Origin: Burkholderiales bacterium 67-32
Lineage (GTDB): Bacteria > Pseudomonadota > Gammaproteobacteria > Burkholderiales > Burkholderiaceae_B
NCBI GenBank assembly: GCA_001898625.1
Contig: MKUP01000006.1
Coordinates: 236,453 to 300,452 of the forward strand
Direction: 5' to 3'
DNA length: 64,000 nt
Under the pieces are notes generated by a model. The model was not told where the DNA came from. It ran no database searches and saw only the letters and a list, made by a program, of their open reading frames with translations. Below are positions 9,073-38,147 of the stretch, piece by piece. How positions within the stretch are numbered: the stretch's first letter is position 1; every line of letters begins with the position of its first letter. A program made the position numbers and the translations under genes.

Positions 9073-9102
9073 GCCCGGCCGCTTCGCGTCCATCGGCGAA
9101 TC

Positions 9103-9117: not shown

Positions 9118-9234
9118 GCCGGGCATAAGCGGCACATTCTCGACGCGGGTACGGGCCCTTCGTATGGTGGCGACAGGACGCCGGCCCCGCGATTCGGGGC
9201 GCGGCGATGTTCATCGATCAGCCATACATTCATC

Positions 9235-10443
9235 ATGACATCAGAAACTCAGGTAGTGATCGTTGGGGCCGGCCCGGTGGGCCTGGTGACCGCGCTGGCG
9301 CTGGCGCGGTCGGGAGTCGAGGTGGTGGTGCTGGAGGCGCTGCGGGAACTGCCCCGCGAGCAGCGCGGCGCGGCCTTCCATCCCCCCACGCTGGAAATGC
9401 TCGAACCTCTCGGGATCACGGACGACCTGCTGCCGCTGGGCCTGCGCATCCCGGTCTGGCAGATACGGGACAAGGAAGAGGGCGTCGTCGCCGAGTTCGA
9501 TCTCGGCATGCTGGCGGGGGAAACCCGCTACCCCTATCGGTTCCACCTGCCCCAGCATCACCTGGCCGCCGACGTGCTGGTCAAGCTCGAGCGGGAACCG
9601 CGCGCGACGGTGGTGTTCGGCGCGAGCGTCGAGGAAGTGAAACAGGACGGGGAACGCGTCGAAGTCCGGTACGGCGATGCCGACGGACGGTTCGAGACGA
9701 TCGCCGCCCGCTGGGTGGTGGGATGCGACGGCGCCCGCAGCGCGGTCAGGAAGAGCAGCGGCATCGACTACGAGGGCTTCACGTGGCCGGAGCGCTTCCT
9801 GGTCACCAACGTCGACGAAGATCTTGCCGGCGAAGGCTTTGCCGAAACCTCGTACGTGGCCGATCCGGACAAGTGGGCCGTCATCCTGCGGCTGGCCGAT
9901 CCCCGGGTAGGGAGTCTGTGGCGCATCGCCATGCCGTCCGATCCCGACCTGCCCGAAGAGCAGGTGCTGGCCGAGGACTACGCCCAGGACATGCTGCGCG
10001 ACGTGCTGGGCCGGGAGCGGGACTGCAAGCTGGTCTACCAGAGCACCTACCGGGTCCATCAGCGCGTGGCCTCCCGTTTCCGCGACGGGCGCGTGCTGCT
10101 GGCGGGCGACGCGGCCCACATCAACAATCCCATAGGCGGATTCGGATTGAACGGCGGCGTGCACGACGCCATCAACCTGTCGGAGAAACTGGCCGCGGTC
10201 TGCGCAGGGGCGGACTGCGCGCTGCTCGATCTCTACGATCGCCAGCGGCGGCACGTGGCGGTCGAGAACGTGCAGCGCCAGAGCATACGCAACAAGCGGC
10301 TCATGCAGGAGCGCGATCCCGGCGTGCGTCGGCAGAACATCGACGAGCTGCGCACGGTGGTCCGCGATCCGGAACTGGCGAAGTCCTACCTGCGCGACAG
10401 TTCCATGATCAGTTCGGTGGCGCAGGCCGCCGCGATCCGCTGA
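9235..10443 (+). CDS. FAD-dependent aromatic monooxygenase
   Basis: A 402-residue group A flavoprotein monooxygenase. It has the N-terminal Rossmann motif 'VVIVGAGPVGL' (residues 7-17), the central 'VGCDGARSAVR' DG motif and the C-terminal 'LLAGDAAHINNPIGGFGLN' GD motif. Such enzymes hydroxylate phenolic rings using NAD(P)H and O2. It is followed 21 bp later by a semialdehyde dehydrogenase. It sits in a cluster with a hydroquinone-dioxygenase-like enzyme and maleylacetate reductase, so formation of hydroquinone from a para-substituted phenol is an attractive inference. The substrate is not provable from the sequence. The ATG has only a weak Shine-Dalgarno. Confidence 0.88.
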   Translation: MTSETQVVIVGAGPVGLVTALALARSGVEVVVLEALRELPREQRGAAFHPPTLEMLEPLGITDDLLPLGLRIPVWQIRDKEEGVVAEFDLGMLAGETRYPYRFHLPQHHLAADVLVKLEREPRATVVFGASVEEVKQDGERVEVRYGDADGRFETIAARWVVGCDGARSAVRKSSGIDYEGFTWPERFLVTNVDEDLAGEGFAETSYVADPDKWAVILRLADPRVGSLWRIAMPSDPDLPEEQVLAEDYAQDMLRDVLGRERDCKLVYQSTYRVHQRVASRFRDGRVLLAGDAAHINNPIGGFGLNGGVHDAINLSEKLAAVCAGADCALLDLYDRQRRHVAVENVQRQSIRNKRLMQERDPGVRRQNIDELRTVVRDPELAKSYLRDSSMISSVAQAAAIR

Positions 10444-22732: not shown

Positions 22733-22837
22733 GCGGGAATGCCTCCGGTTCGTCAGACTTGAATCGTGCGGGCCTGGGCGCCGGCAGGCAATCGATATAT
22801 AGTCAATCCGGTTTACTTTTCATCAACACCACCCTGG

Positions 22838-23719
22838 ATGAAGCTGCCTCCCCTGAACCCCCTGCGGGTGTTCGAGTCCGCCTCGCACACCTTGAGTTTC
22901 ACGCAGACCGCCCGCGAGCTGCATGTGACCACGGGCGCGGTCAGCCGGCAGATTCGCGTGCTGGAGGAGTTCCTGGGCATGCGGTTGTTCGAGCGGGCCA
23001 GCGGCGAGGTGCGCCTGACGCCGGCGGGCAGGGAGTACCGCGACGACCTGAGCGGGGCCTTCGAACGGATCTCGCAGGCAACCACCAAGGCCCTGGGCCG
23101 GAACCGCGACAAGCCGCTGCACGTGTGGTGCCAGATGACGTTCGCCATGCGCTGGCTGTTGCCGCGCATGGCCGAGTTCCATGCGCGGCATCCGGACCGC
23201 GATGCCGTGTTCACCACCTCGCTCAAGCAACTGGACAACCTCAGCGATGCCGACGTCGCCATCTGCATCGGTCATGGCGACTGGCCGGGCGTGATCGCCC
23301 ACCGGCTGGTGGACATCGAACTGCTGCCGGTATGCAGCCCGGCCCTGCTTGCCGGTCCGGTGCCCCTGCGCGAACCGGCGGACCTGGCGCGCCACACCCT
23401 GCTGCAGTCGGCGGCCCGGCCCGACTACTGGGGGCGGTGGCTGGCGGCGCACGGCGTCGAAGGCGTCGACCCCGCGCACGGGCTGACGTTCGAAAACGTC
23501 ACGCTGGCCTACCAGGCGGCGCTGCAAGGCATGGGCGTCGCGATGGGGCAGCATGCGCTGGTGGCCGAGGACCTGGCCGCCGGCCGGCTTGTCGCGCCCT
23601 TCGCGGGCCGGCTCGTGCTGGATTCGGCCTTTTACCTGGTTTATCCCGAGCGCCTGCAGAACGATGCGCATGTCTGCGACTTCCGGGACTGGGTGATGGC
23701 GCAGGCGCGGGTGGCCTGA
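22838..23719 (+). CDS. LysR family regulator (GcvA-like)
   Basis: A 293-residue LysR regulator starting 'MKLPPLNPLRVFESASHTLSFTQ', a GcvA-subfamily opening. The helix-turn-helix is 'TQTARELHVTTGAVSRQIRVLEEFLG', and the C-terminus 'CDFRDWVMAQ' is also GcvA-like. The ATG at 22838 fits family length; in-frame codons upstream are not conserved in character. Divergent transcription from nadX suggests it controls that operon. Confidence 0.88.
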   Translation: MKLPPLNPLRVFESASHTLSFTQTARELHVTTGAVSRQIRVLEEFLGMRLFERASGEVRLTPAGREYRDDLSGAFERISQATTKALGRNRDKPLHVWCQMTFAMRWLLPRMAEFHARHPDRDAVFTTSLKQLDNLSDADVAICIGHGDWPGVIAHRLVDIELLPVCSPALLAGPVPLREPADLARHTLLQSAARPDYWGRWLAAHGVEGVDPAHGLTFENVTLAYQAALQGMGVAMGQHALVAEDLAAGRLVAPFAGRLVLDSAFYLVYPERLQNDAHVCDFRDWVMAQARVA

Positions 23720-23746: not shown

Positions 23747-23762
23747 TTGACTGTTCAGTCAG
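23747..23762. promoter_or_regulatory. TetR-type operator, site A
   Basis: TTGACTGTTCAGTCAG, a near-perfect dyad (one mismatch between the 7-bp arms), related to the perfect palindrome at 31764-31779. It lies upstream of the promoter of the decarboxylase/molybdenum hydroxylase operon, 65 bp before site B. Confidence 0.6.
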
Positions 23763-23781
23763 CTTGGTCCAAAAAAAATCT

Positions 23782-23810
23782 TTGATATACCTTGTCGTCG
23801 GATATAAGAT
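23782..23810 (+). promoter_or_regulatory. Predicted sigma-70 promoter of the decarboxylase-hydroxylase operon
   Basis: TTGATA at 23782-23787, a 17-bp spacer and TAAGAT at 23805-23810, in locally AT-rich DNA. It is bracketed by operators A (upstream) and B (at the expected start site), which fits repression. Confidence 0.55.
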
Positions 23811-23811
23811 G

Positions 23812-23827
23812 TTGACTGTTTAGTCAA
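23812..23827. promoter_or_regulatory. TetR-type operator, site B
   Basis: TTGACTGTTTAGTCAA, a dyad with one arm mismatch. It sits immediately after the predicted -10 element, so a bound repressor would cover the transcription start. It is 64 bp before the ATG at 23891. Confidence 0.65.
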
Positions 23828-23890
23828 TTTTCAATCCGCGTGGGAACCTGCCATCCCGTTGCCGCGCACCCATGATCTCGACGCCATTCT

Positions 23891-24883
23891 ATGAAAAGCC
23901 TGCAATTGAGCATGAGTTGTGCGAACTACGACCGGACGTCCGCGCTGATGGACGGCCGGGCCGGTATCGAAGGCGTGGACCTGATCACGTCGCAGCTCGA
24001 GCCCGAGGAGTCGTTCCACCGCGCCTTCAAGTATGCGGAGTTCGACATCTGCGAGATCTCGCTTAGCAGCCATACGATGATGACTTCCCGCGGCCAGAAC
24101 GCGTATGTCGCGATCCCCGCCTTCGTCTCGCGGCTGTTCCGCCACTCCGGCATCTACATCCGCACCGACCGGGGCATCCGGTCCCCGTCGGACCTGGCGG
24201 GCAAGAAGGTGGGGCTGCCTGAATACCAGATCACGGCCAACGTGTGGATACGCGGCATCCTGCAAGACGACTATGGTCTGGACCCCGCGTCCGTGCGGTG
24301 GCGGCGCGGTGGCGTCGAGCAGGCGGGACGCGAGGAGCGCGCGCCCATCAAGCTGCCGCCGGGCATCGAACTGGAACAGATTGCCGGCGACAAGACACTG
24401 AGCGGGATGCTGGCCGATGGCGAACTGGATGCCGTCATCAGCGCGCGGGCGCCGTCCTGTTTCCTGCGGGGCGAACCGGGCGTCGCCCGCATGTTCCCGG
24501 ACTATCCGAGCGTGGAAGCGGACTACTTCCGGCGCACGCGCATCTTTCCGACCATGCATGCCATCGGCATCCGCAAGGAGCTGGCCGAGCGGCATCCATG
24601 GCTGGCGGTGAATGTGCTCAAGGCGTTCACCCGCGCCAAGGATCTGGCCTTCATCGAGATGGGGCAGATCGGCCACCTCTATCACAGCCTGCCCTGGGGC
24701 GTCGCAGCCTTTGAACAGGCCAGGCGCGACATGGGCGACGACTACTGGAGCTATGGGTTCGAGGCCAATCGCCACGTGTTGGAGACCTTCGTGCGCTATC
24801 ACCACCAGCAGGGCCTGTCGGCGCGCCAGGTCGCGCCCGAGGAGCTGTTCTCGCCGTCCACGCTCGACCTGACCCGGATCTGA
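23891..24883 (+). CDS. 4,5-dihydroxyphthalate decarboxylase-like protein (periplasmic-binding-fold)
   Basis: A 330-residue protein without a signal peptide. It begins 'MKSLQLSMSCANYDRTSALMDGR', as in the 4,5-dihydroxyphthalate decarboxylase (Pht5-like) family, and has matching length. That family has the fold of ABC-type solute receptors and is often auto-annotated as such; the absence of an export signal and of ABC partners favours a cytoplasmic decarboxylase-type role. It is the first gene of an operon with the molybdenum hydroxylase subunits (11-bp gap to the next) and lies under operators A and B. The actual substrate is unproven; phthalate itself is not implied by the neighbours. Confidence 0.75.
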   Translation: MKSLQLSMSCANYDRTSALMDGRAGIEGVDLITSQLEPEESFHRAFKYAEFDICEISLSSHTMMTSRGQNAYVAIPAFVSRLFRHSGIYIRTDRGIRSPSDLAGKKVGLPEYQITANVWIRGILQDDYGLDPASVRWRRGGVEQAGREERAPIKLPPGIELEQIAGDKTLSGMLADGELDAVISARAPSCFLRGEPGVARMFPDYPSVEADYFRRTRIFPTMHAIGIRKELAERHPWLAVNVLKAFTRAKDLAFIEMGQIGHLYHSLPWGVAAFEQARRDMGDDYWSYGFEANRHVLETFVRYHHQQGLSARQVAPEELFSPSTLDLTRI

Positions 24884-24894
24884 GGCGGGGCGCC

Positions 24895-25779
24895 ATGAAA
24901 CCGTCTCCCTTTTCCCTGCACCTGCCGGAGTCGTTGTCCGAGGCGCTGGACCTGCTGGCGAGCCGCGACAATGCCCGCGTGATCGCCGGCGGCCAGTCCC
25001 TGATGCCCATGCTCAACCTGCGGCTGGCCTTCCCGGACGATGTCATCGATCTGAACGGCATCGCCGAACTGGCGGGCCTGCGCGAGGATGGCGACGACAT
25101 CGTCATCGGCGCGATGACCCGCCAGCGCGACATCGAGTTCTCGCCGCTGGTGGCCGAGCGTCTGCCCCTGCTCAAGGAAGCCATCCTGAACGTGGGGCAC
25201 AGGCAGACGCGCAACCGTGGCACGCTGGGCGGCAGCGTCTGCCACCTGGATCCCTCCGCCGAACAGCCGACGGTCGCGATCGCCATGGACGCCCGGCTTT
25301 CCCTGCGCAGCGTGCGCGGCGAGCGGATGGTGTCCATGCGGGAGTTCGCCGTGGACCTGATGACCTCGTGCCTGGAGCCCGATGAAATCCTGGCCGCTGT
25401 CCGCTTCACGCCCTGGCCCGCGCGTGCCGGCCATGCGTTCATCGAGTACGGCCGCAGGCACGGCGACTTCGCCATCGTGTCGGCCGCCGCGCTGGTCCTG
25501 CTGGATGCAAAGGGCGCGGTCGAACGCTGTTCGCTGACCCTGGGGGGCGTGGCGTCGGTGCCGTTCCGAGTCGAGGCAGCCGAGCGCCTGCTCCACGGAA
25601 ACGTCCCCACCGAGGCGGTGGTGCGCGCAGCCTGCGCGCAGGCCGCCCGGTGCGAGGCGGTCGGCGATCCGACCTATCCCGCGTGGTACCGCCAGCGGCT
25701 GGCCCAGCGCCTGCTCGAGCGCGCACTGTTCAAGGCGCTCGAACGCGCCGCCGTCCTCTCCCAGGAACACTCATCATGA
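24895..25779 (+). CDS. Molybdenum hydroxylase FAD-binding (medium, CoxM-like) subunit
   Basis: A 294-residue FAD subunit of a xanthine-oxidase-family hydroxylase. FAD motifs are 'VIAGGQSLMPMLNLRLAFP' (about residues 30-50) and 'RNRGTLGGSVCHLDPSAE'. The C-terminal domain is of the CO dehydrogenase flavoprotein type. It passes electrons from the iron-sulfur subunit to an acceptor. Its stop overlaps the small-subunit ATG in ATGA, giving the classic M-S-L order of these enzymes. Confidence 0.93.
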   Translation: MKPSPFSLHLPESLSEALDLLASRDNARVIAGGQSLMPMLNLRLAFPDDVIDLNGIAELAGLREDGDDIVIGAMTRQRDIEFSPLVAERLPLLKEAILNVGHRQTRNRGTLGGSVCHLDPSAEQPTVAIAMDARLSLRSVRGERMVSMREFAVDLMTSCLEPDEILAAVRFTPWPARAGHAFIEYGRRHGDFAIVSAAALVLLDAKGAVERCSLTLGGVASVPFRVEAAERLLHGNVPTEAVVRAACAQAARCEAVGDPTYPAWYRQRLAQRLLERALFKALERAAVLSQEHSS

Positions 25780-26282
25780 AGAAACTCGAAGTCGGCGAGC
25801 TGGCGCGGATATCGCTGTGCGTCAACGGCGCGCAGCACGCGGTCAGCGTGGAGCCGCGCACGACACTGGGCGATTGCCTGCGCAACGACCTGGGGCTGAC
25901 CGGCACCCACCTGGGCTGCGAGCACGGCGTTTGCGGCGCCTGTACGGTGCACGTGAACGGGGCCACCGCGCGCAGTTGCCTGATGTTGGCGGCGCAGGCG
26001 CAGCGGTACGAGATCCATACGGTCGAATCGCTGGCGGGCAATGGCGAACTCAACGATCTGCAGCAGGCATTCCGGGAGCTGCATGGATTGCAGTGCGGTT
26101 TCTGCACCCCGGGCATTCTGATGACCCTGACCGAATTGCTGCGCGACATGCCCGAGGCGACCGAGGAAGACGTCAGGCTGGCCTTGTCCGGGCACATCTG
26201 CCGCTGTACCGGATACCAGAACATCGTGGCCGCCGCCATGCGTACCCTGGAAAGCAGGAGGGCCGTCCATGAACGCGCGTGA
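25776..26282 (+). CDS. Molybdenum hydroxylase 2Fe-2S (small, CoxS-like) subunit
   Basis: A 168-residue protein with two [2Fe-2S] sites. The plant-type ferredoxin motif is 'GCEHGVCGACTVHVNG' plus a later 'SCL'. The C-terminal helical site is 'QCGFCTPG' with 'CRCTGYQNIV'. ATG at 25776 overlaps the CoxM-like stop by 4 bp, and its own 3' end overlaps the large-subunit start by 14 bp. Tight overlap supports stoichiometric translation of the three subunits. Confidence 0.94.
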   Translation: MKKLEVGELARISLCVNGAQHAVSVEPRTTLGDCLRNDLGLTGTHLGCEHGVCGACTVHVNGATARSCLMLAAQAQRYEIHTVESLAGNGELNDLQQAFRELHGLQCGFCTPGILMTLTELLRDMPEATEEDVRLALSGHICRCTGYQNIVAAAMRTLESRRAVHERA

Positions 26283-28626
26283 CCGGGTTCCGGCCTCCCA
26301 TATCGGCAAGCGCGCGCTGCGCGCCGAGGACGTCCGTCTGCTGACGGGAGCGGGCCGCTACGTGGCCGACATCGACCTGCCCGACGCCCTGCACGTCGCC
26401 TTCGTCCGCAGCCCCTACGCCCATGCGCTGATCCGCGGCGTGGACGGCTCGGCCGCGCTGGAGGTTCCGGGCGTGGTCGCGGTCATCGACGCGCGCGAGA
26501 TGGCGACCTACGTCGAGGCCTTGCGCATGCCACTGGGCTGGCCGACCAGCGACCTGCCGCCCGACATCACGCCCTACGTGCTGTGCCCCGAGGAAGTGTG
26601 TTTTGTGGGCGAGGCGGTGGCGATGGTGCTGGCGACTTCCCGCTACATCGCGGAGGATGGCGCGGCGCTGGTGATGGTGGACTACGACCCGCTGCCGGCC
26701 GTCTCCGACGTGCACGCCGCGCTGGAGCCCGACGCGCCCAAGGTGCGGCGCGAGGCGCCCGGCAACGTGCTGCGGGAATTCCGCGTGGGCTACGGCGAGT
26801 GCGACGCGGCGTTCCAGGATGCGCCGCACGTTTTCCGCGAGACCATTTCCCAGCACCGCGGCGGCGCCCATCCGATGGAGTGCCGGGGCATGGTGGCGCA
26901 GTATGACAAGCACCAGGGCGCGCTGATGATCTGGGCTTCGACCCAGATGCCGCACGAACTGGCTTTCACCGTCGCCAAGGCGCTGGGCCTGCCCGACTCG
27001 CTGGTCCGGGTGGTGGCGCCCGACGTGGGTGGCGGCTTCGGCTGCAAGTTCGTGGTCTATCCCGAGGAACTGGCGGTGGCCGCCGTTGCCTGGCACCACA
27101 AGCGCGCGGTCAAGTGGATCGAGGACCGCATGGAACACTTCCTGGGCGCCATCCAGGAGCGCGACCAGCTCTGGGACGTCGAGGTGGCCTGCGACGACAA
27201 GGGCGTGGTCCGGGGCATACGCGGGACCATGCTGCACGACCAGGGCGCCTATACGCCCCAGGGTGTGAACTGCGCCTACAACTCCAGCACGGCGGTGACC
27301 GGCCCTTATGCCATTCCCGCCTACGAGATGCGGGTCACGGTGGTGCAGACCAACAAGATCTACGTGATCCCGGTCCGGGGCGCGGGGTATCCGCAGGGCA
27401 CCTTCGTGATGGAGCGGCTGCTGGACCGGATCGCCTTCGAGCTGGGCGAGGACCGCGCGGCGGTGCGTGCGCGCAATCTCGTATTGGCGGAGAAGATGCC
27501 CTACACCAAGCCGCTGACCGCCCGGTCGGGCCGGCCCATCGTGCTCGACAGCGGCGATTACCTGGATGCCCAGCGCCGCGTGCTGGAGCAGATCGACTAT
27601 GCCGGCTTCGACGCGAAGCGCCAGGCGGCGCGGCGCGACGGACGCTACATCGGCCTGGGTTTCGCCCACGCGGTCAAGGGGACGGGGCGCGGACCGTTCG
27701 AGTCCGGCAGCGTACGCGTGTCGTCGAACGGGCACGTCGCCGTGGCCACCGGCGCGATGGCGATGGGGCAGGGCCTGAACACCGCCATGGCCCAGATCGC
27801 CGCCGAACAACTATGCGTGCCGGTCGAGGCGGTGCAGGTGATATCCGGCGATACCGCCCACACGTCGATGGGCGTGGGCGGGTTCGCCAGCCGGCAGACC
27901 GTGACCGCCGGTTCGTCCGTGCACTATGCCGCCGTGGCCGTGGCGGCCAAGCTGCGCAAGGTCGGCGCCATCATGCTGAAGATGGACGAGTCGGCGGTCT
28001 GCCTGCGCGACGGCACGGTCTGTGCGACCGACGATCCAGGCCGCGCGGTGACCTACAGCGAAATCGCGCGCCTGCTGCGAGGCATACCCGGCTACGACCT
28101 GCCGCCCGGGGTGGGCGCGGGCCTCGAGGCCACCATCCATTGGGAGCCCACCGACATGGCCTATGCGCATGGCTTCCACGCCTGCGAGGTCGAGGTGGAC
28201 ATCGTGACCGGCGAAGTGCGCGTCCTGCGCTATGTCGCGACCCACGACAGCGGTACGCTGATCAATCCCATGACCGCCGAAGGACAGATCCACGGCGGCA
28301 TCGTGCACGGTATCGGCAATGCCTTGTTCGAGTGCATGCGCTACGACGACCAGGCCCAGCCCATCAGCACGACTTTCGCGGACTACCTGCTGACGACCGC
28401 CACCGAGGTGCCGCCCCTGGAGATTTCGTTCACCGAGTCTCCGGCTCCCAGCAATCCGCTGGGAGTGAAAGGCGTGGGCGAGGCCGGGACGATTCCCGTC
28501 ACCGCGGCCATCGCCTCGGCCATCGACGACGCGTTGGCGGATTTCAGGATCCGGGTATCACGGGTGCCCGTGGAGCCGGTCGAGCTCGTCCGGCAGATCG
28601 CCGCGCACGAGCAGGCGGCGGGCTGA
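26269..28626 (+). CDS. Molybdenum hydroxylase molybdopterin-binding (large, CoxL-like) subunit
   Basis: A 785-residue subunit carrying the Mo-cytosine-dinucleotide-type cofactor. It has the N-terminal 'RALRAEDVRLLTGAGRYVADI', the cofactor loop 'APDVGGGFGCKF', and the C-terminal 'GVGEAGTIPVTAAIASAIDDAL', whose Glu is the catalytic base. The CO dehydrogenase active-site signature AYXCSFR is absent; the corresponding region reads 'RGAGYPQGTFVMER'. It is thus a hydroxylase for an aldehyde or (N-)aromatic compound rather than CO. Cofactor maturation genes are not in the window. Substrate unknown. Confidence 0.92.
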   Translation: MNARDRVPASHIGKRALRAEDVRLLTGAGRYVADIDLPDALHVAFVRSPYAHALIRGVDGSAALEVPGVVAVIDAREMATYVEALRMPLGWPTSDLPPDITPYVLCPEEVCFVGEAVAMVLATSRYIAEDGAALVMVDYDPLPAVSDVHAALEPDAPKVRREAPGNVLREFRVGYGECDAAFQDAPHVFRETISQHRGGAHPMECRGMVAQYDKHQGALMIWASTQMPHELAFTVAKALGLPDSLVRVVAPDVGGGFGCKFVVYPEELAVAAVAWHHKRAVKWIEDRMEHFLGAIQERDQLWDVEVACDDKGVVRGIRGTMLHDQGAYTPQGVNCAYNSSTAVTGPYAIPAYEMRVTVVQTNKIYVIPVRGAGYPQGTFVMERLLDRIAFELGEDRAAVRARNLVLAEKMPYTKPLTARSGRPIVLDSGDYLDAQRRVLEQIDYAGFDAKRQAARRDGRYIGLGFAHAVKGTGRGPFESGSVRVSSNGHVAVATGAMAMGQGLNTAMAQIAAEQLCVPVEAVQVISGDTAHTSMGVGGFASRQTVTAGSSVHYAAVAVAAKLRKVGAIMLKMDESAVCLRDGTVCATDDPGRAVTYSEIARLLRGIPGYDLPPGVGAGLEATIHWEPTDMAYAHGFHACEVEVDIVTGEVRVLRYVATHDSGTLINPMTAEGQIHGGIVHGIGNALFECMRYDDQAQPISTTFADYLLTTATEVPPLEISFTESPAPSNPLGVKGVGEAGTIPVTAAIASAIDDALADFRIRVSRVPVEPVELVRQIAAHEQAAG

Positions 28627-28705
28627 CGCCTTGCCACACCGCCGGCATCCCGCCGGCAAATTCATCGATCCAAGCAGTTCTTACTTCCTGGGAAGGGGTT
28701 GAACA

Positions 28706-29701
28706 ATGTCTAGGTTGAACAAGATGCGCGTGTGCGCAGGCGTCGTTGCGGCGCTATCCATGGCTGCTTCGCAGCAGGGCCATGCCGACGTGCGGTTTCC
28801 GACCAAGGCGGTGCGCATTGTGGTCGGCTTCACGCCCGGCGGCGCGGCGGACCAGACCGCGCGCATCATGGCCGAGAAGCTGGCGGAGAAATGGAAACCC
28901 CACGCCGTGGTGGTCGAGAACGTGATCGGTGCGGGCGGCAACATCGGCGCGCTGAATGTCTACCGGTCGCCGCCGGACGGCCACACCCTGCTGCTGGTCA
29001 GCAACACGCACGCGATCAATCGCGTGCTCTACACCGAGACCGAGTTCGACATCACCAAGGACTTCGCCTTCGCGGGCATGATGACGTCCTCGGCCATCGT
29101 GATCGCCGTCAACCCCAAGGCCAAGATCAAGACCATGCCGGAGCTGCTGGCGAAGATGGAGCGGGAAAAGGGCGAGATGAACTACCTGACCTGCGGCGCG
29201 GCCACGGCCCACCATTTCGCGATGGAGCTGATCAAGGTCGAAACCCACACCAAGGCTGTTCACGTACCGCATCGCGGCTGCAGCCCGGCCGTGGTGGACG
29301 CGGTCGCGGGGCACGTCGACACGGTCGTGGCGACCATGCCCACGGTGCTGCCCTTCATCAAGAGCGGCAAGCTGGTGCCCATCGCGGTCACGTCGGCGAA
29401 GCGCTCGGAGTCGGCCAAGGATATCCCCACCGTGGCGGAATCCGGCATTCCCGCGCTGAAGAACTTCTCGGTGGAAAACTACTACGGCCTGGCCGCACCC
29501 GCGGGGACGCCCAAGGACGTCGTGGCCAAGATCGAGAGCGACGTCAGGCAGGCGCTGGAATCGCCGGAAACCCGCGCCAAGCTGTCGGGCGCAGGACTGG
29601 ATGTGTTCTTCCTGGATTCGGCACAATCGGCCGAACTGATCAAGCGAGACGTGGCGAGCTACGGCGCGGCAGCCAGGACGGCCGGTATCAAGGCGGAGTG
29701 A
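28706..29701 (+). CDS. Bug-family (TctC-like) periplasmic substrate-binding protein
   Basis: A 331-residue receptor. The signal peptide ends near 'GHA', the mature start is 'VRFPTKAVRIVVGFTPGGAAD', followed by 'VVVENVIGAGGN' and 'DGHTLLL'. The AAGGGG-containing leader precedes ATG 28706. It is 79 bp after the large hydroxylase subunit and ends just before a strong terminator, so it closes the operon. It probably binds the compound degraded by the hydroxylase pathway. Confidence 0.9.
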   Translation: MSRLNKMRVCAGVVAALSMAASQQGHADVRFPTKAVRIVVGFTPGGAADQTARIMAEKLAEKWKPHAVVVENVIGAGGNIGALNVYRSPPDGHTLLLVSNTHAINRVLYTETEFDITKDFAFAGMMTSSAIVIAVNPKAKIKTMPELLAKMEREKGEMNYLTCGAATAHHFAMELIKVETHTKAVHVPHRGCSPAVVDAVAGHVDTVVATMPTVLPFIKSGKLVPIAVTSAKRSESAKDIPTVAESGIPALKNFSVENYYGLAAPAGTPKDVVAKIESDVRQALESPETRAKLSGAGLDVFFLDSAQSAELIKRDVASYGAAARTAGIKAE

Positions 29702-29711
29702 TCCGCGGCGT

Positions 29712-29745
29712 GCCGGGGCGGGCAGTCCACGCCCCGGCGTTTTTC
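29712..29745 (+). terminator. Rho-independent terminator of the hydroxylase operon
   Basis: A perfect 9-bp stem GCCGGGGCG/CGCCCCGGC (29712-29720 and 29730-29738) followed by GTTTTTCC. It lies 10 bp after the Bug stop and before the convergent CoxG-like gene. Confidence 0.88.
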
Positions 29746-29752
29746 CTTTTGC

Positions 29753-30280
29753 CTACGACGGCGCTCCCTCTTTCCTGAACAGCCGCTTCCAGCGAGGGAC
29801 GGCATTCCCGCTGGGTTCGACCGTTGCTGCCTCGCCGGCACCTTGTCGCATGAGCGCGTTGAACTTGCCGAAGAAATCGTCCGACAGCTTGCGCGCCGCG
29901 GCCTCGATCAACCGCGCGCCGACCTGCGCCAGCTTGCCGCCGATCGAGGCATCGACGGTGTAGTTCAGCCGCGTGGCATCGGCTTCGGGTTCGAGCCGGA
30001 CGGCGGCCGTACCCTTGCCGAATCCGGCGGCGCCGCCCTGGCCCTCGAACTCCAGGCTGTAGGAGGTCGGGGCCTGGATGTCCAGCAGCCGCAGCTTGCC
30101 CTTGAATTTCGCGCTGACGGGACCGATGCGCACGCTCATCTCGACCCGATAGGCATGCTCGCCGTCTTCGGTGATGGCATCGCAGCCAGGAATGCATTGC
30201 CGCAGCACTTCCGGATCATTCAGCGCTTCCCACGTCGTCTGCTGGTCCGCCGGTACCAGCTGTTCGCCAACCAATTGCAT
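29753..30280 (-). CDS. CoxG-like SRPBCC family protein (carbon monoxide dehydrogenase subunit G family)
   Basis: A 175-residue SRPBCC-fold protein. The CoxG hallmark 'EALNDPEVLRQCIPGC' is near residues 20-35, followed by beta-strand blocks 'VSAKFKGKLRLLDIQAP' and 'LNYTVDASIGGKLAQVGARLIE'. CoxG proteins help anchor or mature molybdenum hydroxylases at the membrane. AAGGAG precedes ATG 30280. It follows cupin copy 1 by 24 bp and converges on the hydroxylase operon, so the accessory protein and its enzyme are encoded on opposite strands but appear to share the same operator motif. Confidence 0.88.
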   Translation of the reverse strand: MQLVGEQLVPADQQTTWEALNDPEVLRQCIPGCDAITEDGEHAYRVEMSVRIGPVSAKFKGKLRLLDIQAPTSYSLEFEGQGGAAGFGKGTAAVRLEPEADATRLNYTVDASIGGKLAQVGARLIEAAARKLSDDFFGKFNALMRQGAGEAATVEPSGNAVPRWKRLFRKEGAPS

Positions 30281-30297
30281 CGCTTGTTCTCCTTGGA

Positions 30298-30892
30298 GGC
30301 GTGTCTAGTTGCGGTGGCTGGACGTGAGGTGTCCGTCGCGTTTCTGGAAGAGGTCGTCGCTGGCGTAGCCCATGAGTTCGGGCTGTGCGCGGCCGAGCAT
30401 GACCTGGAAGTAGACGGGTTCGAGGCTGCGGTTCTCGTAGCCGTGGATGACGCCGGGCGGGCAGGCGGCGCATTCCCAGGGGGCGAGGCGGCGCCAGGCC
30501 TTGTTGCCGGCCTCGTCCTCGAAGAAGACGTCCAGGAAGCCCTGCAGGACGAAGAAGACTTCCTCGACCTCGTGGGTGTGGGCGGCGTTTCCCTGTCCGG
30601 GCTCGACGTACATGATGCTCAGGGTGAATCCGCGGGCGGGGATGGCGGAGGTATCGCCGTGCTTGCCGGAGCCGCCGGCGCCGATGAAGCGGTGCTGGGC
30701 GCGCTTGAAACCTTCGATCCTGGCGTCCTCGAAGGCGGCCCAGTCGGGGGTCTTGTCGCGGAAGCGGCCGACGTAGCGGGCGGCGATGTCTTCGAGCGAA
30801 GCGTGCTCGAGTTCGGGTGGTCGGGGGTGGCGTGCGGTGGCCATCGTGGGTTCCTCGGGGGTGGATGGAGGGCGATGGCGTGCGACGGCCAT
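30298..30892. repeat. Direct repeat, copy 1 (cupin gene and leader)
   Basis: A 595-bp segment almost identical to 34344-34938 (offset 4046). I count three differences, all silent in the cupin frame or its upstream in-frame extension. Similarity continues, less perfectly, through the predicted promoter and operator to about 30935. The copies are in direct orientation about 3.5 kb apart. Confidence 0.92.
30305..30844 (-). CDS. Cupin domain-containing protein, copy 1
   Basis: A 179-residue single-domain cupin. Metal motif 1 is 'GNAAHTHEVEEVFFVLQG' (two His and a Glu) and motif 2 is 'PPGVIHGYEN', so a mononuclear metal site is likely. It could be a small dioxygenase, isomerase or decarboxylase; no specific family is recognised. 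ATG 30844 is chosen for GAGGA at about 7 bp; an in-frame ATG at 30892 would add 16 residues but has no ribosome-binding site. The protein is identical to that at 34351-34890. It precedes the CoxG-like gene by 24 bp on the same strand. Confidence 0.85.
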   Translation of the reverse strand: MATARHPRPPELEHASLEDIAARYVGRFRDKTPDWAAFEDARIEGFKRAQHRFIGAGGSGKHGDTSAIPARGFTLSIMYVEPGQGNAAHTHEVEEVFFVLQGFLDVFFEDEAGNKAWRRLAPWECAACPPGVIHGYENRSLEPVYFQVMLGRAQPELMGYASDDLFQKRDGHLTSSHRN

Positions 30893-30903
30893 CGTACGAC
30901 CAC

Positions 30904-30932
30904 ACGATAGGGTAAATTGACTAAATGGTCAA
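30904..30932 (-). promoter_or_regulatory. Predicted promoter of cupin copy 1 overlapping operator site C
   Basis: On the minus strand TTGACC (30932-30927) is followed by a 17-bp spacer and TATCGT (30909-30904). The operator dyad TTGACTAAATGGTCAA (30917-30932, one arm mismatch) overlaps the -35 element. A bound repressor would block RNA polymerase. The same architecture occurs before cupin copy 2. Confidence 0.6.
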
Positions 30933-30969
30933 TGTTAAGCGCCGGAAATCCGATCCGGCGCAATGGCCA

Positions 30970-31656
30970 TCAATCCTTCTTCAGGTACCGGATCACCATG
31001 TCCGCCGCGTGCTCCAGGCGCTGTCGAACCCGCTGCGGCGTCATTAGTTTCTGGCGGAAGATGGCCTCGAAGGTGTGCTGGTTGTTGACGTAGTGAGCGG
31101 TCAGCGAGGTGACGGAGATGTAGAGATCGATGGGGTCGATGTCGTCGCGGAAGACGCCCGCCTCGCGGCCGCGGGCCAGCAGTTGTTCGATCGTGTCCAG
31201 CAGCGGGTTGTACAGGTCCGAGATGGCCGCGTCGCTGGCGACGTGCCGGCCGCCGGCCAGGTTCTCGCTCATCAGCAGGCGCTGGAACTCGGGAAACTGG
31301 ACCCAGATCTTGCCCGTGGAGATGACCAGCCGGCGCATCGCTGCTTCGGGGTCCACGGTGCGCAGCTGGATGTCCTGCTGCCGCGCCCGGATGTTCTCGT
31401 AGGTATGGGTCAGCACCGCGACGAACAGGCCATCCTTGTTGCCGAAGTGGTGGTAGAGCAGGTTCTTGTTTACGCCCGCCCGCAGCGCGATCTCGTCCAC
31501 GCGCGCGCCTTCGAAGCCTTTCTGCGAGAACTCCTGGATGGAGGCCTCGATGATGGACAGGCGGGTGCGGGCGGCGCTTTCCCGCGGGCCGCTGGCCCGG
31601 CGCCGGGGTGTTGCGGGAACGGTGGTGTCTGCTTTTTTTGGAGTCATGGCGGACAT
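30970..31656 (-). CDS. TetR family transcriptional regulator
   Basis: A TetR-type protein of 228 residues from ATG 31656. In-frame starts at 31647 (ATG) and 31737 (GTG) are possible and none has a clear ribosome-binding site. The N-terminal DNA-binding domain includes 'ARTRLSIIEASIQEFSQKGF' and the helix-turn-helix 'ARVDEIALRAGVNKNLLYHHFGNKDGLF'. The ligand-binding domain is CECR/YcdC-like in style. The perfect palindrome TTGACTA-AA-TAGTCAA lies between it and the divergent aldehyde dehydrogenase; related palindromes precede the two cupins and the hydroxylase operon. It is the best candidate for the common repressor and is probably autoregulated. Confidence 0.88.
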   Translation of the reverse strand: MSAMTPKKADTTVPATPRRRASGPRESAARTRLSIIEASIQEFSQKGFEGARVDEIALRAGVNKNLLYHHFGNKDGLFVAVLTHTYENIRARQQDIQLRTVDPEAAMRRLVISTGKIWVQFPEFQRLLMSENLAGGRHVASDAAISDLYNPLLDTIEQLLARGREAGVFRDDIDPIDLYISVTSLTAHYVNNQHTFEAIFRQKLMTPQRVRQRLEHAADMVIRYLKKD

Positions 31657-31763
31657 GAGGGCCTGGATGCTAGGGGGCCGTGCAAGTGTACATGCAGCGG
31701 GATTCGCGCCTCGTGCGCGGGCCGGCCGGGTGGCCACGGGATTTTCGTTTTATCGTCTTTAAA

Positions 31764-31779
31764 TTGACTAAATAGTCAA
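31764..31779. promoter_or_regulatory. TetR-type operator, site D (perfect palindrome)
   Basis: TTGACTAAATAGTCAA: perfect 7-bp arms with a 2-bp centre. It lies between the divergent TetR and aldehyde dehydrogenase genes, only 12 bp before the aldehyde dehydrogenase ATG. It is identical to site E before cupin copy 2. Confidence 0.75.
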
Positions 31780-31791
31780 ACAAAACATAGA

Positions 31792-33261
31792 ATGAAGTCC
31801 GATCCCCTCTTTCCTGATCTTGCGAGCGAGCCCGCCTTGGATATCCTGCACAGCTTTATCGATGGCCAGTCCGTACCCGGCACCGGGACGACGATCACGC
31901 TGGAGTCGCCCCAGCATGCCGACCGCCGCATCCACCTGGCCGAGGCCTCCGACGAGCTGTGCGCGCAGGCGGTCTCCTCCGCCCTGGCCGCGTTCCGCCG
32001 CCACGCGGCGGCACCGGTGGTGGAGCGGGCGGCCTTGCTGAACAAGGCGGCGGATCTGCTGGAGGCGCGGGTGGGCGCCGTGGCGGAGCTGCTGGTGAGC
32101 GACGTCGGCAAGCCCGTCCGGGTGGCGCGCGTCGAGGTCGTCCGCGGCGTCCAGTTCCTTCGGGCCTGCGCGGTGCAGCTCCAGACGTTGACCGGCGAGA
32201 TGCTGCCGCTGGATGCCGTCGCGGCGGGTGTGGGGCGGCATGGCCTGGTACGCCGCGTGCCATACGGCGTCGTGGCCGCGATTACCCCGTTCAATGCGCC
32301 GGTCAACCTGCTGGTGCAGAAAGTGGCGCCGGCCCTGGCGGCGGGCAACGCCGTCGTGGTCAAGCCGCATCCGGCCGGAACGCGCGCGGCGCTGGCCGTC
32401 GCCGCGCTGTTCGTGGAGGCGGGGCTGGCGCCGGGGTTGTTCAACGTGGTTTGCGGCGACCGGTCCCCGGCACAGGCCCTGGTGCGGGATGCGAGGGTCC
32501 GGGTCGTGACGTTCACGGGCGGCACGGCGGCCGGCGATGCGCTGGCGCGCATGGCCGGTGCGAAGAAGTTCGTGGCGGAACTGGGTTCGAATGCCGCCAA
32601 TGTGGTGCTGGCCGACGCGGACCTGGCCGATGCCGCCCGCCGCATCGCTGCCGCCGCCTTCGAAGCGAGCGGCCAGCAGTGCGTGTCGGCGCAGCGCGTG
32701 ATCGTGGAGGCTTCGGCCTACGATGCCTTCCTGCCGCTGTTCGTGGAAGCGGCCCGAGCCTTGCGCGTGGGCAGCGCGGACGACGAGGCCACCGACGTCG
32801 GTCCCATGGTTTCGCGTGCGGCCGCCGACCGCGTTATGGGCATGGCGCGCCGGTCGGTGGAGCGGGGTGCCCGATATGCCCTGGAGCCGAAGCAGGACGG
32901 CTGCCGGGTCAGCCCCGGCATCCTGGTCGATGCGCCCGCCGATAGTCCCATCTGGGCGGACGAGGCCTTCGGCCCGCTGGCCGTCGTGCAGCGCGCCGCC
33001 GATGCGCAGGAGGCGCTGCAACTGGCGAACGATTCGCCGTTCGGCCTGCAGGGCGCGGTGTTCACCCGCAGCCTGGGCAATGCCTTCCTGTTTGCCGACG
33101 GCTTCGAGGTGGGATCCCTGTGGATCAACGAGGCCAGCCGCTTCCGGCTCGACATGTATCCCTTCGGCGGCGCCAAGGAGTCGGGCTTCGGCCGCGAAGG
33201 CGTGCGCTACGCGATAGACGAACTGTCGCAGTTGCGCTTCATCGGCATCCGGCCGCTGTAG
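31792..33261 (+). CDS. Aldehyde dehydrogenase family protein
   Basis: A 489-residue NAD(P)-dependent aldehyde dehydrogenase. It has 'AITPFNAPVNLLVQKVAPALAAGNAVV', 'VTFTGGTAAGDAL', the general base in 'AELGSNAANVVLA' and catalytic Cys297 in 'GQQCVSAQRV'. The Cys context and 'GSN' in place of 'GGK' resemble lactaldehyde/glyceraldehyde-type members more than benzaldehyde dehydrogenases. It is divergent from TetR. The ATG has no visible ribosome-binding site and lies 12 bp from the operator, so the transcript may be nearly leaderless. Probably oxidises an aldehyde intermediate of the hydroxylase pathway. Confidence 0.88.
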   Translation: MKSDPLFPDLASEPALDILHSFIDGQSVPGTGTTITLESPQHADRRIHLAEASDELCAQAVSSALAAFRRHAAAPVVERAALLNKAADLLEARVGAVAELLVSDVGKPVRVARVEVVRGVQFLRACAVQLQTLTGEMLPLDAVAAGVGRHGLVRRVPYGVVAAITPFNAPVNLLVQKVAPALAAGNAVVVKPHPAGTRAALAVAALFVEAGLAPGLFNVVCGDRSPAQALVRDARVRVVTFTGGTAAGDALARMAGAKKFVAELGSNAANVVLADADLADAARRIAAAAFEASGQQCVSAQRVIVEASAYDAFLPLFVEAARALRVGSADDEATDVGPMVSRAAADRVMGMARRSVERGARYALEPKQDGCRVSPGILVDAPADSPIWADEAFGPLAVVQRAADAQEALQLANDSPFGLQGAVFTRSLGNAFLFADGFEVGSLWINEASRFRLDMYPFGGAKESGFGREGVRYAIDELSQLRFIGIRPL

Positions 33262-33266
33262 CGCGG

Positions 33267-33298
33267 GCCCCCCTTCGCGGCGTCGGCCGGAGGGGGGC
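33267..33298. terminator. Stem-loop between convergent genes (probable bidirectional terminator)
   Basis: An 8-bp stem GCCCCCCT/AGGGGGGC (33267-33274 and 33291-33298) sits between the convergent aldehyde dehydrogenase and Bug genes. The flanking T-tract is weak. Confidence 0.5.
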
Positions 33299-33316
33299 TT
33301 CCCGGTTCTTCCCAGG

Positions 33317-34282
33317 CTAGTTGATGGTCGCGCCGGACTGTTTGACGACCACGCGCCACTTCTCGATCTCGGCCTTCAGGAACGCCTGGAACGTTTCCGG
33401 ACTGCCGCCCATGATGTCGAATCCCTGGCCGATCAATTGCTGCTGCACGTTCGGCCGCGCCAGCACCTTGGCCGATTCGGCGTTGACGGTGTCGACCACG
33501 GCGCGCGGCGTGCCGGCGGGCGCGACCAGTCCGAACCAGGCCACGGCCTCGAAGCCGGGCAGGCCGCTTTCGTTCAGCGTGGGAACGTCGGGCAGCCAGG
33601 ACAGGCGGTTGCGGGTCGTGACCGCAAGCAGGTTGACGTTGCCGTTCTTGGCCAGCGCGAGCGCGTTGGGAATGTTGGGGAACATCAGGGTGGTCTCGTT
33701 GCGCATGACCGCCGTCAACGCTTCCGACGAACCCTTGTAGGGCACGTGCATCAACTGTACGCCGGTCATGGACTTGAAGAGTTCGCCCGCCAGATGCTGC
33801 GAAGTCCCGTTGCCGCCGGAGCTGAAGCTGAGTTCGCCGGGCTTGGCGCGGGCGGCCTTGACCAGGTCGGCGACGGACTTGATGCCGGAGGCGGGAGAAA
33901 CCACGAGGGCGTTCGGGTTCGAGGCCAGCACGATGATGGGTGCGAAGTCCTTGACCGGGTCGTACGGCATCTTTTTGTAGAGGGACGGATTGATGGCGTG
34001 CGAGCTGACCGAGGCCAGCAGCAGCGTGTAGCCGTCGGGCGGCGACTTGGCGACGTGCTCGCCGGCGATGTTGCCGCCGGCGCCGGGACGGTTCTCGACG
34101 ACGAACGCGACCTTCAGCGCCTTGCCCAGTTGCTCGGCCATGACGCGCGCCAGCATGTCCGAGGTGGCGCCGGGCGGGGCGGTGACGACGATCCGCACGG
34201 GCTTGGCGGGATAGGTGTCGGCGGCGGCCGGGGCTGTCAGTGCGACGGTCGCGCAGACGAATGCCAGTTTCATTCGATTCAC
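33317..34282 (-). CDS. Bug-family (TctC-like) periplasmic substrate-binding protein
   Basis: A 321-residue receptor. The signal peptide ends around 'APAAA', followed by 'DTYPAKPVRIVVTAPPGATSD'. The usual PGG loop is PGA here, a small departure in the ligand-binding loop. '[11 protein letters not shown]' and 'DGYTLLLASVS' follow. It lies 68 bp after cupin copy 2 on the same strand and may be co-transcribed with it under operator E. It would then be the second Bug receptor of the TetR-linked block. Confidence 0.88.
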   Translation of the reverse strand: MNRMKLAFVCATVALTAPAAADTYPAKPVRIVVTAPPGATSDMLARVMAEQLGKALKVAFVVENRPGAGGNIAGEHVAKSPPDGYTLLLASVSSHAINPSLYKKMPYDPVKDFAPIIVLASNPNALVVSPASGIKSVADLVKAARAKPGELSFSSGGNGTSQHLAGELFKSMTGVQLMHVPYKGSSEALTAVMRNETTLMFPNIPNALALAKNGNVNLLAVTTRNRLSWLPDVPTLNESGLPGFEAVAWFGLVAPAGTPRAVVDTVNAESAKVLARPNVQQQLIGQGFDIMGGSPETFQAFLKAEIEKWRVVVKQSGATIN

Positions 34283-34343
34283 AGCGTGTACTCCTGCAAA
34301 TGGGGCGCCGCGCGGGCATCGTTACGCCCGGGAATGGGCGCGG

Positions 34344-34938
34344 GGCGTGTCTAGTTGCGGTGGCTGGACGTGAGGTGTCCGTCGCGTTTCTGGAAGAGGT
34401 CGTCGCTGGCGTAGCCCATGAGTTCGGGCTGAGCGCGGCCGAGCATGACCTGGAAGTAGACGGGTTCGAGGCTGCGGTTCTCGTAGCCGTGGATGACGCC
34501 GGGCGGGCAGGCGGCGCATTCCCAGGGGGCGAGGCGGCGCCAGGCCTTGTTGCCGGCCTCGTCCTCGAAGAAGACGTCCAGGAAGCCCTGCAGGACGAAG
34601 AAGACTTCCTCGACCTCGTGGGTGTGGGCGGCGTTTCCCTGTCCGGGCTCGACGTACATGATGCTCAGGGTGAATCCGCGGGCGGGGATGGCGGAGGTAT
34701 CGCCGTGCTTGCCGGAGCCGCCGGCGCCGATGAAGCGGTGCTGGGCGCGCTTGAAGCCTTCGATCCTGGCGTCCTCGAAGGCGGCCCAGTCGGGGGTCTT
34801 GTCGCGGAAGCGGCCGACGTAGCGGGCGGCGATGTCTTCGAGCGAAGCGTGCTCGAGTTCGGGTGGTCGGGGGTGGCGTGCGGTGGCCATCGTGGGTTCC
34901 TCGGGGGTGGATGGAGGGCGATGGCGCGCGACGGCCAT
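34344..34938. repeat. Direct repeat, copy 2 (cupin gene and leader)
   Basis: Second copy of the 595-bp segment at 30298-30892. Protein-coding differences are silent. Upstream of 34938 the copies diverge more strongly but keep the same -10, -35 and operator. The pair flanks the TetR, aldehyde dehydrogenase and Bug genes. Confidence 0.92.
34351..34890 (-). CDS. Cupin domain-containing protein, copy 2
   Basis: Encodes the same 179-residue metal-binding cupin as the gene at 30305-30844 (motif 1 'HTHEVEE', motif 2 'PPGVIHGYEN'). The start is again assigned at the ATG with GAGGA, at 34890. It differs from copy 1 by two silent bases. It is followed on the same strand by a Bug receptor rather than by a CoxG-like gene, so duplication has placed one cupin in each of two transcription units controlled by the same motif. 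Confidence 0.85.
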   Translation of the reverse strand: MATARHPRPPELEHASLEDIAARYVGRFRDKTPDWAAFEDARIEGFKRAQHRFIGAGGSGKHGDTSAIPARGFTLSIMYVEPGQGNAAHTHEVEEVFFVLQGFLDVFFEDEAGNKAWRRLAPWECAACPPGVIHGYENRSLEPVYFQVMLGRAQPELMGYASDDLFQKRDGHLTSSHRN

Positions 34939-34949
34939 CGTTCAGCCGC

Positions 34950-34978
34950 ACGATAGGTTTAGTTGACTAAATAGTCAA
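34950..34978 (-). promoter_or_regulatory. Predicted promoter of cupin copy 2 overlapping operator site E (perfect palindrome)
   Basis: On the minus strand TTGACT (34978-34973), a 17-bp spacer and TATCGT (34955-34950). The operator TTGACTAAATAGTCAA (34963-34978) is a perfect palindrome identical to site D and covers the -35 element. Confidence 0.65.
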
Positions 34979-35046
34979 TATTTTGAAATGGAGAACTGAA
35001 TTATCCTAATTTTTATTTGGTTTTTTCTAGAAATATCTTCTTGTTA

Positions 35047-35062
35047 TTGACTAAATGGTAAT
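35047..35062. promoter_or_regulatory. Degenerate TetR operator, site F
   Basis: TTGACTAAATGGTAAT keeps the left arm of the palindrome but the right arm is decayed. It is 84 bp from site E in an AT-rich stretch (about 34955-35065). It may be an auxiliary half-site or a relic. Confidence 0.3.
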
Positions 35063-37235: not shown

Positions 37236-38147
37236 TCAGCGCGCGAATTCCGTCGCCGCCCAGACCGCTTCGACCACGTCGGCCTGGCGGGCGCGGGGCC
37301 GGTACAGCCGGACTTCGAACGGGACTTCGTCGCTGCGGCCGCCCAGGACCACCATGTTGCGGCGCTGGCAGTCGGCCGCCACCATGGACCAGGGCAGCCA
37401 CGCGACGCCCAGGCCCTTCTTGACGAATTCGTAGACGGCGTCGGCCGAGTCGCAGCGCAGGAACACGTTCATGCCCGCGAGTGGATTGCGCTCGAAATGC
37501 TCGCTCAGCAGCCGCTCCATGGACAGGCCGATGCCGTAGGCGATCAGCGGCGTTGCCTGGCTGGCTCCGATCAGGCTGTAGCGAGGCTTGCCCTGCGCAT
37601 CGGCCACGCTGACCGGCACCAGCTTTTCCGTGGACAGCGTCAGGTGGCGATAGCGGTGGCCGTTCAGCGGCACCGACAACGCCCGGTGTTCGTAGCAGCA
37701 CAGCATGTCGACCTTGCTTTGTTCCAGCATGCCGGCAAGGTCGGATGTCGCGCCGGTGATGATGTCGATCTGCGCCTTGCCGCGCAGCGGGCTGCGCGGC
37801 ATGTGCGTGATGCGGGCCAGCCAGTCGGCCACCAGGGTGCGGGCCAGCGTGCGGCCCGTGCCTATGCGCAGGCTCATGCCCTGGTTGGTGCCGTGGCGCT
37901 GGATTTGCGAGCGGGCGTTGGCGACGCTTTCGACCGTGCGTTCGGCGGTCTTGAGCATGACCTCGCCCTCGGGGGTGAGCTGGACCGGCGTGCGATTGCG
38001 TTCCACCAGCGGCGAGCCGGCCCAGACTTCCAGCGCGCGGATGCGGCGGCCGAAGGCGGGGTGGGTGACGTGCCGCATTTCGGCGGCGCGCACGAAGCTC
38101 TGCGTCCGGGCGAGCGCGATCAGGTCTTCGAAAAGTTTGAGGTCCAT
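37236..38147 (-). CDS. LysR family transcriptional regulator
   Basis: A 303-residue LysR protein. The DNA-binding helix region is 'QSFVRAAEMRHVTHPAFGRRIRALEVWAG', and 'VERNRTPVQLTPEGE' is the wing. The C-terminal effector domain includes 'CDSADAVYEFVKKGLGVAWLPWSM'. It sits between the AapJQMP transporter operon (99 bp upstream) and the Bug-deacylase pair, all on the minus strand, and probably controls one or both. Effector unknown. Confidence 0.88.
   Translation of the reverse strand: MDLKLFEDLIALARTQSFVRAAEMRHVTHPAFGRRIRALEVWAGSPLVERNRTPVQLTPEGEVMLKTAERTVESVANARSQIQRHGTNQGMSLRIGTGRTLARTLVADWLARITHMPRSPLRGKAQIDIITGATSDLAGMLEQSKVDMLCCYEHRALSVPLNGHRYRHLTLSTEKLVPVSVADAQGKPRYSLIGASQATPLIAYGIGLSMERLLSEHFERNPLAGMNVFLRCDSADAVYEFVKKGLGVAWLPWSMVAADCQRRNMVVLGGRSDEVPFEVRLYRPRARQADVVEAVWAATEFAR

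Follow-up and report, generated by a model that had tools for sequence, protein, structure and literature searches.

RutR-type palindromes around a TetR-family gene point to a local catabolic regulon in Pigmentiphaga

The DNA analyzed here is a 64,000-nucleotide stretch (the window, to which unprefixed coordinates refer) of the genome of Burkholderiales bacterium 67-32, contig MKUP01000006.1. The organism, a soil bacterium, belongs to the genus Pigmentiphaga, and the TetR-family protein encoded at 30970–31656 (P0001) is 98% identical to that of P. kullae K24. Around tetR, copies of a 16-bp palindrome precede four transcription units: a decarboxylase–FAD–2Fe-2S–molybdopterin–Bug operon, cupin1–coxG, tetR divergent to an aldehyde dehydrogenase (ALDH) gene, and cupin2–Bug. 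We propose that P0001 is a local repressor of these units and that the palindromes, which resemble the RutR boxes of Escherichia coli, are its operators. The features are as follows; all −35 and −10 elements are predictions from sequence.

22766–23719 and 37236–38147: two LysR proteins, flanking the cluster
23747–23762: box A1, TTGACTGTTCAGTCAG, 5′ of the predicted −35 of the decarboxylase/molybdenum hydroxylase operon
23812–23827: box A2, TTGACTGTTTAGTCAA, immediately 3′ of the predicted −10 of the same operon
23891–24883, plus strand: 4,5-dihydroxyphthalate-decarboxylase-like protein, the operon's first gene; its sole PDB match at E ≤ 0.01 is 9jp7, a 4,5-dihydroxyphthalate decarboxylase (E = 1.5e-95)
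24895–25779, plus strand: molybdenum hydroxylase FAD subunit (Pfam FAD_binding_5, CO_deh_flav_C)
25776–26282, plus strand: molybdenum hydroxylase 2Fe-2S subunit (start ATG inferred; Pfam Fer2_2, 98.4 bits, and Fer2); the copy in genome G105 is 73% identical
26269–28626, plus strand: molybdopterin subunit; the closest solved structures are 6-hydroxypseudooxynicotine dehydrogenase and quinoline 2-oxidoreductase
28706–29701, plus strand: Bug/TctC periplasmic receptor, the operon's final gene
29753–30280, minus strand: CoxG, behind cupin 1 (Pfam COXG, 107.9 bits, cut-off 22.2)
30305–30892, minus strand: cupin 1 (Pfam Cupin_2)
30917–30932: box B, TTGACTAAATGGTCAA; its right arm serves as −35 in the predicted cupin1–coxG promoter (TTGACC, 17 nt, TATCGT)
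30970–31656, minus strand: putative TetR-family repressor P0001 (TetR_N and TetR_C_29)
31764–31779: box C, TTGACTAAATAGTCAA, between tetR and the ALDH gene; its left arm is the predicted ALDH −35 (TTGACT, 18 nt, TAGAAT)
31792–33261, plus strand: ALDH; the real start is probably TTG 31837, because the −10 overlaps ATG 31792, relatives differ by indels 5′ of 31837, and the frame in G105 opens at the matching codon
33317–34282, minus strand: Bug/TctC receptor, behind cupin 2
34351–34938, minus strand: cupin 2, its DNA 99.5% identical to that of cupin 1
34963–34978: box D, TTGACTAAATAGTCAA; its right arm serves as −35 in the predicted cupin2–Bug promoter (TTGACT, 17 nt, TATCGT)
35047–35062: box D2, decayed, 84 bp from box D

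Both strands of the whole window were searched with TTGACTANNTAGTCAA, allowing up to three mismatches. The search returned exactly the six positions given in the original prediction, 23747 (three mismatches), 23812 (one), 30917 (one), 31764 (none), 34963 (none), and 35047 (three), and nothing beyond them, in agreement with the claim that the window holds no further copy. Shuffled windows gave a mean of 0.12 matches, and none of 100 shuffles reached six. Sites 31764 and 34963 proved to be identical perfect palindromes, as had been stated, and they are the only pair with a common sequence among the 21 perfect 7-2-7 palindromes of the window. The sites had also been assigned to five promoters. 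They are indeed intergenic, but they occupy four regions, namely LysR/decarboxylase (two sites), cupin1/tetR, tetR/ALDH, and cupin2/AstE (two sites); five is an overcount because 23747 and 23812 share one region and 34963 and 35047 another.

Throughout the genome (6.66 Mb in 34 contigs, the window being C6:236453-300452), TTGACTANNTAGTCAA occurs four times with at most one mismatch, each time inside the 11-kb cluster. Three 2-mismatch sites lie elsewhere, each within a long open reading frame of a mechanically generated list. Up to three mismatches, 72 sites were counted against 183 for a reversed control pattern, and 3-mismatch sites outside the cluster were therefore given no weight. About 8 kb outside the window on the same contig, an open reading frame (L005, 1278–2102), presumably for an Asp/Glu-racemase- or maleate-isomerase-like protein, carries a 2-mismatch site in its coding part.

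P0001 had matches at E ≤ 1e-40 in 29 of 268 family genomes. A TetR protein at least 61% identical was present in only five, namely the window's own (G000), G196, G192, G197 (two copies), and G105, the next best match being 43–44% identical. The exact sequence TTGACTRNNYAGTCAA was found in 14 of the 268 genomes: all five with a TetR orthologue and nine of the other 263, the latter with one site each. The 12 exact sites of the orthologue genomes all fall within clusters (three in G000, two each in G192 and G196, four in G197, and one in G105). The chance of finding all five genomes among the 14, calculated by hand with genomes taken as independent, is about 2e-7, which overstates the case because four of the five are close relatives. 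None of the nine stray sites had a relative of 24 window query genes within 1.5 kb at E 1e-12. A motif common in unrelated promoters, named beforehand as the result that would speak against a regulon, was thus seen neither with TTGACTANNTAGTCAA in the genome itself nor with exact TTGACTRNNYAGTCAA in the family genomes. Among plasmid records, 24 matched the TetR protein, all below 60% identity, and none matched the cupin at E 1e-30. In strain SAGV5 (L119–L122; G197 C9), two copies of the cluster lie about 118 kb apart, near 841.8 and 959.7 kb, and run in opposite directions; their cupin genes and cupin promoters are identical.

G105 belongs to another genus of the same family. Its TetR protein is 61% identical to P0001, and relatives of the cluster genes (51–80% identical) lie there in changed order over 13.5 kb. 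Boxes precede ALDH–hydrolase–decarboxylase–molybdenum hydroxylase (two, with two mismatches each), coxG (two mismatches), ABC transporter–AspDH (two mismatches), and cupin–tetR (none), so that five of the genome's seven sites at up to two mismatches fall in the reshuffled cluster. In G105 the AspDH and hydrolase genes follow boxes; those in the window have none. Neither LysR gene was found at E 1e-15 in the 36 kb read around this cluster.

Conversely, all 13 stretches around related decarboxylase genes lacked both a TetR relative (E 1e-8) and a site at up to three mismatches. The two most similar to the window are L179 (G442) and L182, in the window's own genome (G000 C19, ~13 kb). L179 shares the decarboxylase (65% identical), FAD (58%) and FeS (61%) subunits, ALDH (63%), hydrolase (51%), and cupin (74%); unlike the window cluster, the stretch read holds no molybdenum hydroxylase large subunit that we could find, no box, and no TetR relative, and a thiamine-diphosphate enzyme takes the subunit's place. 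L182 shares the decarboxylase (64%), FAD (56%), FeS (62%), and molybdenum (50%) subunits; the stretch read there showed neither a box nor a TetR relative (E 1e-8), and relatives of the cupin, ALDH, and hydrolase were likewise not found. The cluster-specific sites, the reshuffle in G105, and these box-free, TetR-less clusters support the original prediction that one repressor controls four transcription units.

Each of the four Pigmentiphaga genomes retains boxes A1, A2, B, C, and D, box B without change, and the palindrome next to tetR (31764 in the window) is also present at the Pigmentiphaga orthologues. Of box D2, one TTGACT half is constant among the four genomes and the second half varies. 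The inner pair of box A1 is G..C in three genomes and A..T in one (G192), with symmetry retained. Such symmetrical change, the retention of both arms although a promoter needs only one, the different flanks of the boxes outside the cupin promoters, and the boxes before rearranged units in G105 make it highly improbable that the repeats are duplicated promoter segments without operator function. That explanation draws on the resemblance of TTGACT to a −35 element and on the cupin genes, which are recent or converted copies. Cupin1 and cupin2 evolve in concert, being 97.8–99.8% identical within each of the four genomes and 91–96% between genomes, a pattern that suggests continuing gene conversion. 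Their upstream 120 bp are 41–52% identical within a genome (now 52% in the window's) and 83–93% between orthologous cupin1 copies. As the two genes are near-identical copies, boxes 30917 and 34963 may share descent from one promoter.

Judged by its sequence, the box is of the RutR type, which the original prediction had overlooked, together with the double role of the arms as predicted −35 elements and the lack of boxes at the window's AspDH and hydrolase genes. The consensus of the RutR box is TTGACCANNTGGTCAA. At up to three mismatches, TTGACYANNTRGTCAA had one match each in two E. coli upstream stretches, TGGACTAAACGGTCAA (two mismatches) at rutA/rutR and TTGACCATTTGGTCCA (one mismatch) at carA, which we take to be the published RutR boxes of the rut region and carA. 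With shuffled sequence, chance alone produced a match in 62 of 200 cases for the rut stretch and in 31 of 200 for the carA stretch; the status of both sites as RutR boxes therefore comes from the literature and not from this search. The minus strand of box B, TTGACCATTTAGTCAA, differs from TTGACCATTTGGTCCA at two positions, and this resemblance concerns the site only.

The protein itself is TetR-like rather than RutR by the models. P0001 scored 61.7 bits for TetR_N (cut-off 24) and 125.6 bits for TetR_C_29 (cut-off 26.2), as expected of a TetR-family member, and stayed far below the cut-offs of the RutR models TIGR03613 (59.7 against 368) and NF011584 (61.4 against 230 bits). TetR_C_29 fits far better than TetR_C_3, for which P0001 scored 23.5 bits against a cut-off of 25 and E. 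coli RutR 198.8 bits. P0001 and E. coli RutR are 27% identical. Like RutR, P0001 belongs to the TetR family and goes with a 16-bp palindrome of that design, one copy of which adjoins the regulator's gene; by prediction, it too controls a catabolic operon locally. It also retains K52 and K62; an excerpt of PMC10891134 describes RutR as binding a palindrome of ~16 bp as a dimer, with K52 and K62 contacting DNA in a homology model. Unlike RutR, it carries TetR_C_29 in place of TetR_C_3, and its predicted targets are molybdenum hydroxylase, decarboxylase, ALDH, and cupin genes. A figure legend in PMC10891134 lists W77, Y97, W167, Q171, and Q179 as the uracil contacts of RutR. None of the five is retained in the alignment; uracil was rejected as the ligand, and a different one is to be expected. 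Pfam scans of 19 window proteins showed no rut-type gene, and linkage to a rut-type pyrimidine operon was accordingly not found.

The predicted promoter of the decarboxylase operon consists of TTGATA from 23782, a 17-nt spacer, and TAAGAT ending at 23810. Box A2 follows, and it would lie over the likely transcription start because it stands directly behind the −10. As the arms of three boxes (B, C, and D) are predicted −35 elements and this fourth box follows a predicted −10, bound protein would be likely to block RNA polymerase. Activation by the bound TetR protein, or dual regulation of the kind that RutR exerts at carAB, is therefore unlikely in our view, although box A1, upstream of the predicted −35, would suit such a role. 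An excerpt of PMC6245113 reports that RutR stimulates carAB P1 from an upstream site, the RutR box spanning −192 to −177 relative to P1.

The relationship between regulator and box was then followed in TetR homologues, by the core RACYANNTRGTY at most 300 nt upstream of tetR or in its first 30 nt. Upstream counts cover 77 tetR loci, and counts by helix class cover 73, after removal of four Pigmentiphaga loci; excluded from both were the 17 weakest loci (L097–L113), L046–L048 (whose genes are those of L018, L019, and L045), the window locus L016, and six of 36 P0001 family matches given no locus. The core lay upstream in 20 of 77 loci, where 0.15 were expected from shuffles and about 1.8 from core density (59 in 842 kb, boxes included). 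Sorted by recognition helix, it was upstream of tetR in 16 of 33 loci of the K[NQ]..YH[HY]F class, none of 39 of the KR..YYYF class, and not in the single other locus. With either flank of tetR allowed, the counts became 23 of 33, 0 of 39, and 0 of 1, the seven additional loci being gained on the side not viewed when the core pattern was chosen. The KR..YYYF loci, 26 of which share one helix, hold 17 cores in 461 kb, none beside tetR. TetR_C_29 was found in all six homologues scanned (four of the K[NQ]..YH[HY]F class and two of the KR..YYYF class), and so was TetR_N.

These homologues, from other Proteobacteria and an Acidobacterium, are 36–45% identical to P0001 and resemble it as TetR_C_29 regulators with the core RACYA-N2-TRGTY beside tetR (23 of 73 loci). 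They differ in the outer bases of the box, which vary (for example, GTAACTA or CAACCA arms), and in their neighborhoods, which lack this enzyme set and show only Bug, ALDH, LysR, one CoxG relative at ≤45%, and AspDH at 46–47% identity (L059 and L060), loci from the family-genome search reaching just 1.5 kb on each side. In L059 and L060 (6272–8741), a TetR protein 41% identical to P0001 is encoded near this AspDH, and a box core lies just 3′ of tetR. RutR-type boxes are probably not peculiar to pyrimidine control: a large TetR_C_29/RutR-like clade with K-[NQ]-x-x-Y-H-[HY]-F helices would read operators of one grammar, with ACYA-N2-TRGT as the core and variable outer bases, its ligand domains and target pathways having diversified, and Pigmentiphaga would be a multi-unit catabolic case with boxes in −35 elements.

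The helix classes also bear on which protein binds the palindromes. The LysR genes flank the cluster and are both conserved in the Pigmentiphaga loci, and the window's genome holds 13 RutR matches at E ≤ 1e-5, P0001 included. Yet binding by one of the two LysR proteins or by an unlinked TetR protein appears improbable, since G105 retains boxes and TetR with neither LysR gene in the 36 kb, and a LysR-type site was rejected on this ground. P0001 is the genome's best RutR match (58.5 bits; runner-up, 43.7). Its nearest paralogue found (C10:513916; L209, 39% identical) is near no site at up to two mismatches, has a DKRLIYYYF helix, of the class never seen with the core, and has no box core around its gene. 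A 34% paralogue (L208) has a differing helix, SKQILSHHF, and likewise no core around its gene.

We put at roughly 0.86 the probability that the 30970–31656 TetR protein is a local repressor of four separate or divergent units via RutR-type boxes. The sequence-level basis consists of the boxes, their cluster specificity and conservation, their placement relative to predicted promoters, and the correlation between helix and box in homologues; binding by the 30970–31656 product, repression, a ligand, and one common pathway are inferred. Several points weigh against this reading. The four Pigmentiphaga genomes are close kin and not independent. A −10 with at least four of six matching bases stands 16–18 nt from a box arm in only four of 12 box/gene arrangements (G000 and G105), compared with eight of 102 places for TTGACY in general, a control that includes the boxes. 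Within the window, neither the AspDH/hydrolase unit nor the AstE/Bug unit has a box, and part of the neighborhood thus falls outside the regulon. The core RACYANNTRGTY was chosen after the homologues' upstream palindromes had been viewed, and the Fisher value for its presence on either flank by helix class, 2e-11, is not a kinship-corrected probability because the homologues share ancestry. Lastly, at 10 of the 33 loci of the K[NQ]..YH[HY]F class, a box is missing from the 360 nt around tetR; one of these loci is that of G105, where the box stands before the cupin gene.

In the proposed mechanism, a TetR dimer would occupy each 16-bp RutR-type box (TTGACYR-N2-YRGTCAA). Without inducer, it would cover the −35 elements of cupin1–coxG, ALDH, and cupin2–Bug, while boxes A1 and A2, 65 bp apart, would bracket the promoter of the decarboxylase/molybdenum hydroxylase/Bug operon and may act jointly. 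In the region shared by tetR and ALDH, TetR would probably also hold down transcription of its own gene. All units would be turned on together when TetR is freed by a small ligand, which is probably a pathway substrate or intermediate and not uracil.

The proposed regulon is new and its kind, a local TetR-type repressor with RutR-type boxes, is known. The exact full palindrome was not found in the text of the open papers searched, sequences in figures being outside the scope of the search, and a search for the half-site with TetR-related terms yielded no report of the motif that we recognized among the papers listed. A characterized cluster of the same make-up was likewise not found in the literature, of which titles and abstract openings were covered. 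The units probably serve one pathway, in which an aromatic or N-heteroaromatic acid would be oxidized, hydroxylated, and decarboxylated; since the closest solved molybdenum subunits act on N-heterocycles, pyridine or pyrimidine acids were considered as possible substrates. The thiamine-diphosphate enzyme beside the shared enzyme core in L179 may hint at a 2-oxo-acid step. The prediction of an inducible regulon down to the single box, with a named candidate repressor, offers a handle on the inducer and substrate of an uncharacterized pathway. Should the helix/box rule hold, sequence could reveal the operators of many TetR_C_29 regulators that have not been studied, and the repressor and its box could be used together for inducible expression as soon as the ligand is identified.

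Around other cupin paralogues (L202–L204), there were just two 3-mismatch sites, to which no weight was given; one (L203:10284) is ~150 nt before the cupin gene, and L204 has none. In L203 (G204, 6726–10131), genes for a hydrolase, AspDH, an FAD monooxygenase, and a 66% identical cupin adjoin genes resembling a meta-cleavage lower pathway.

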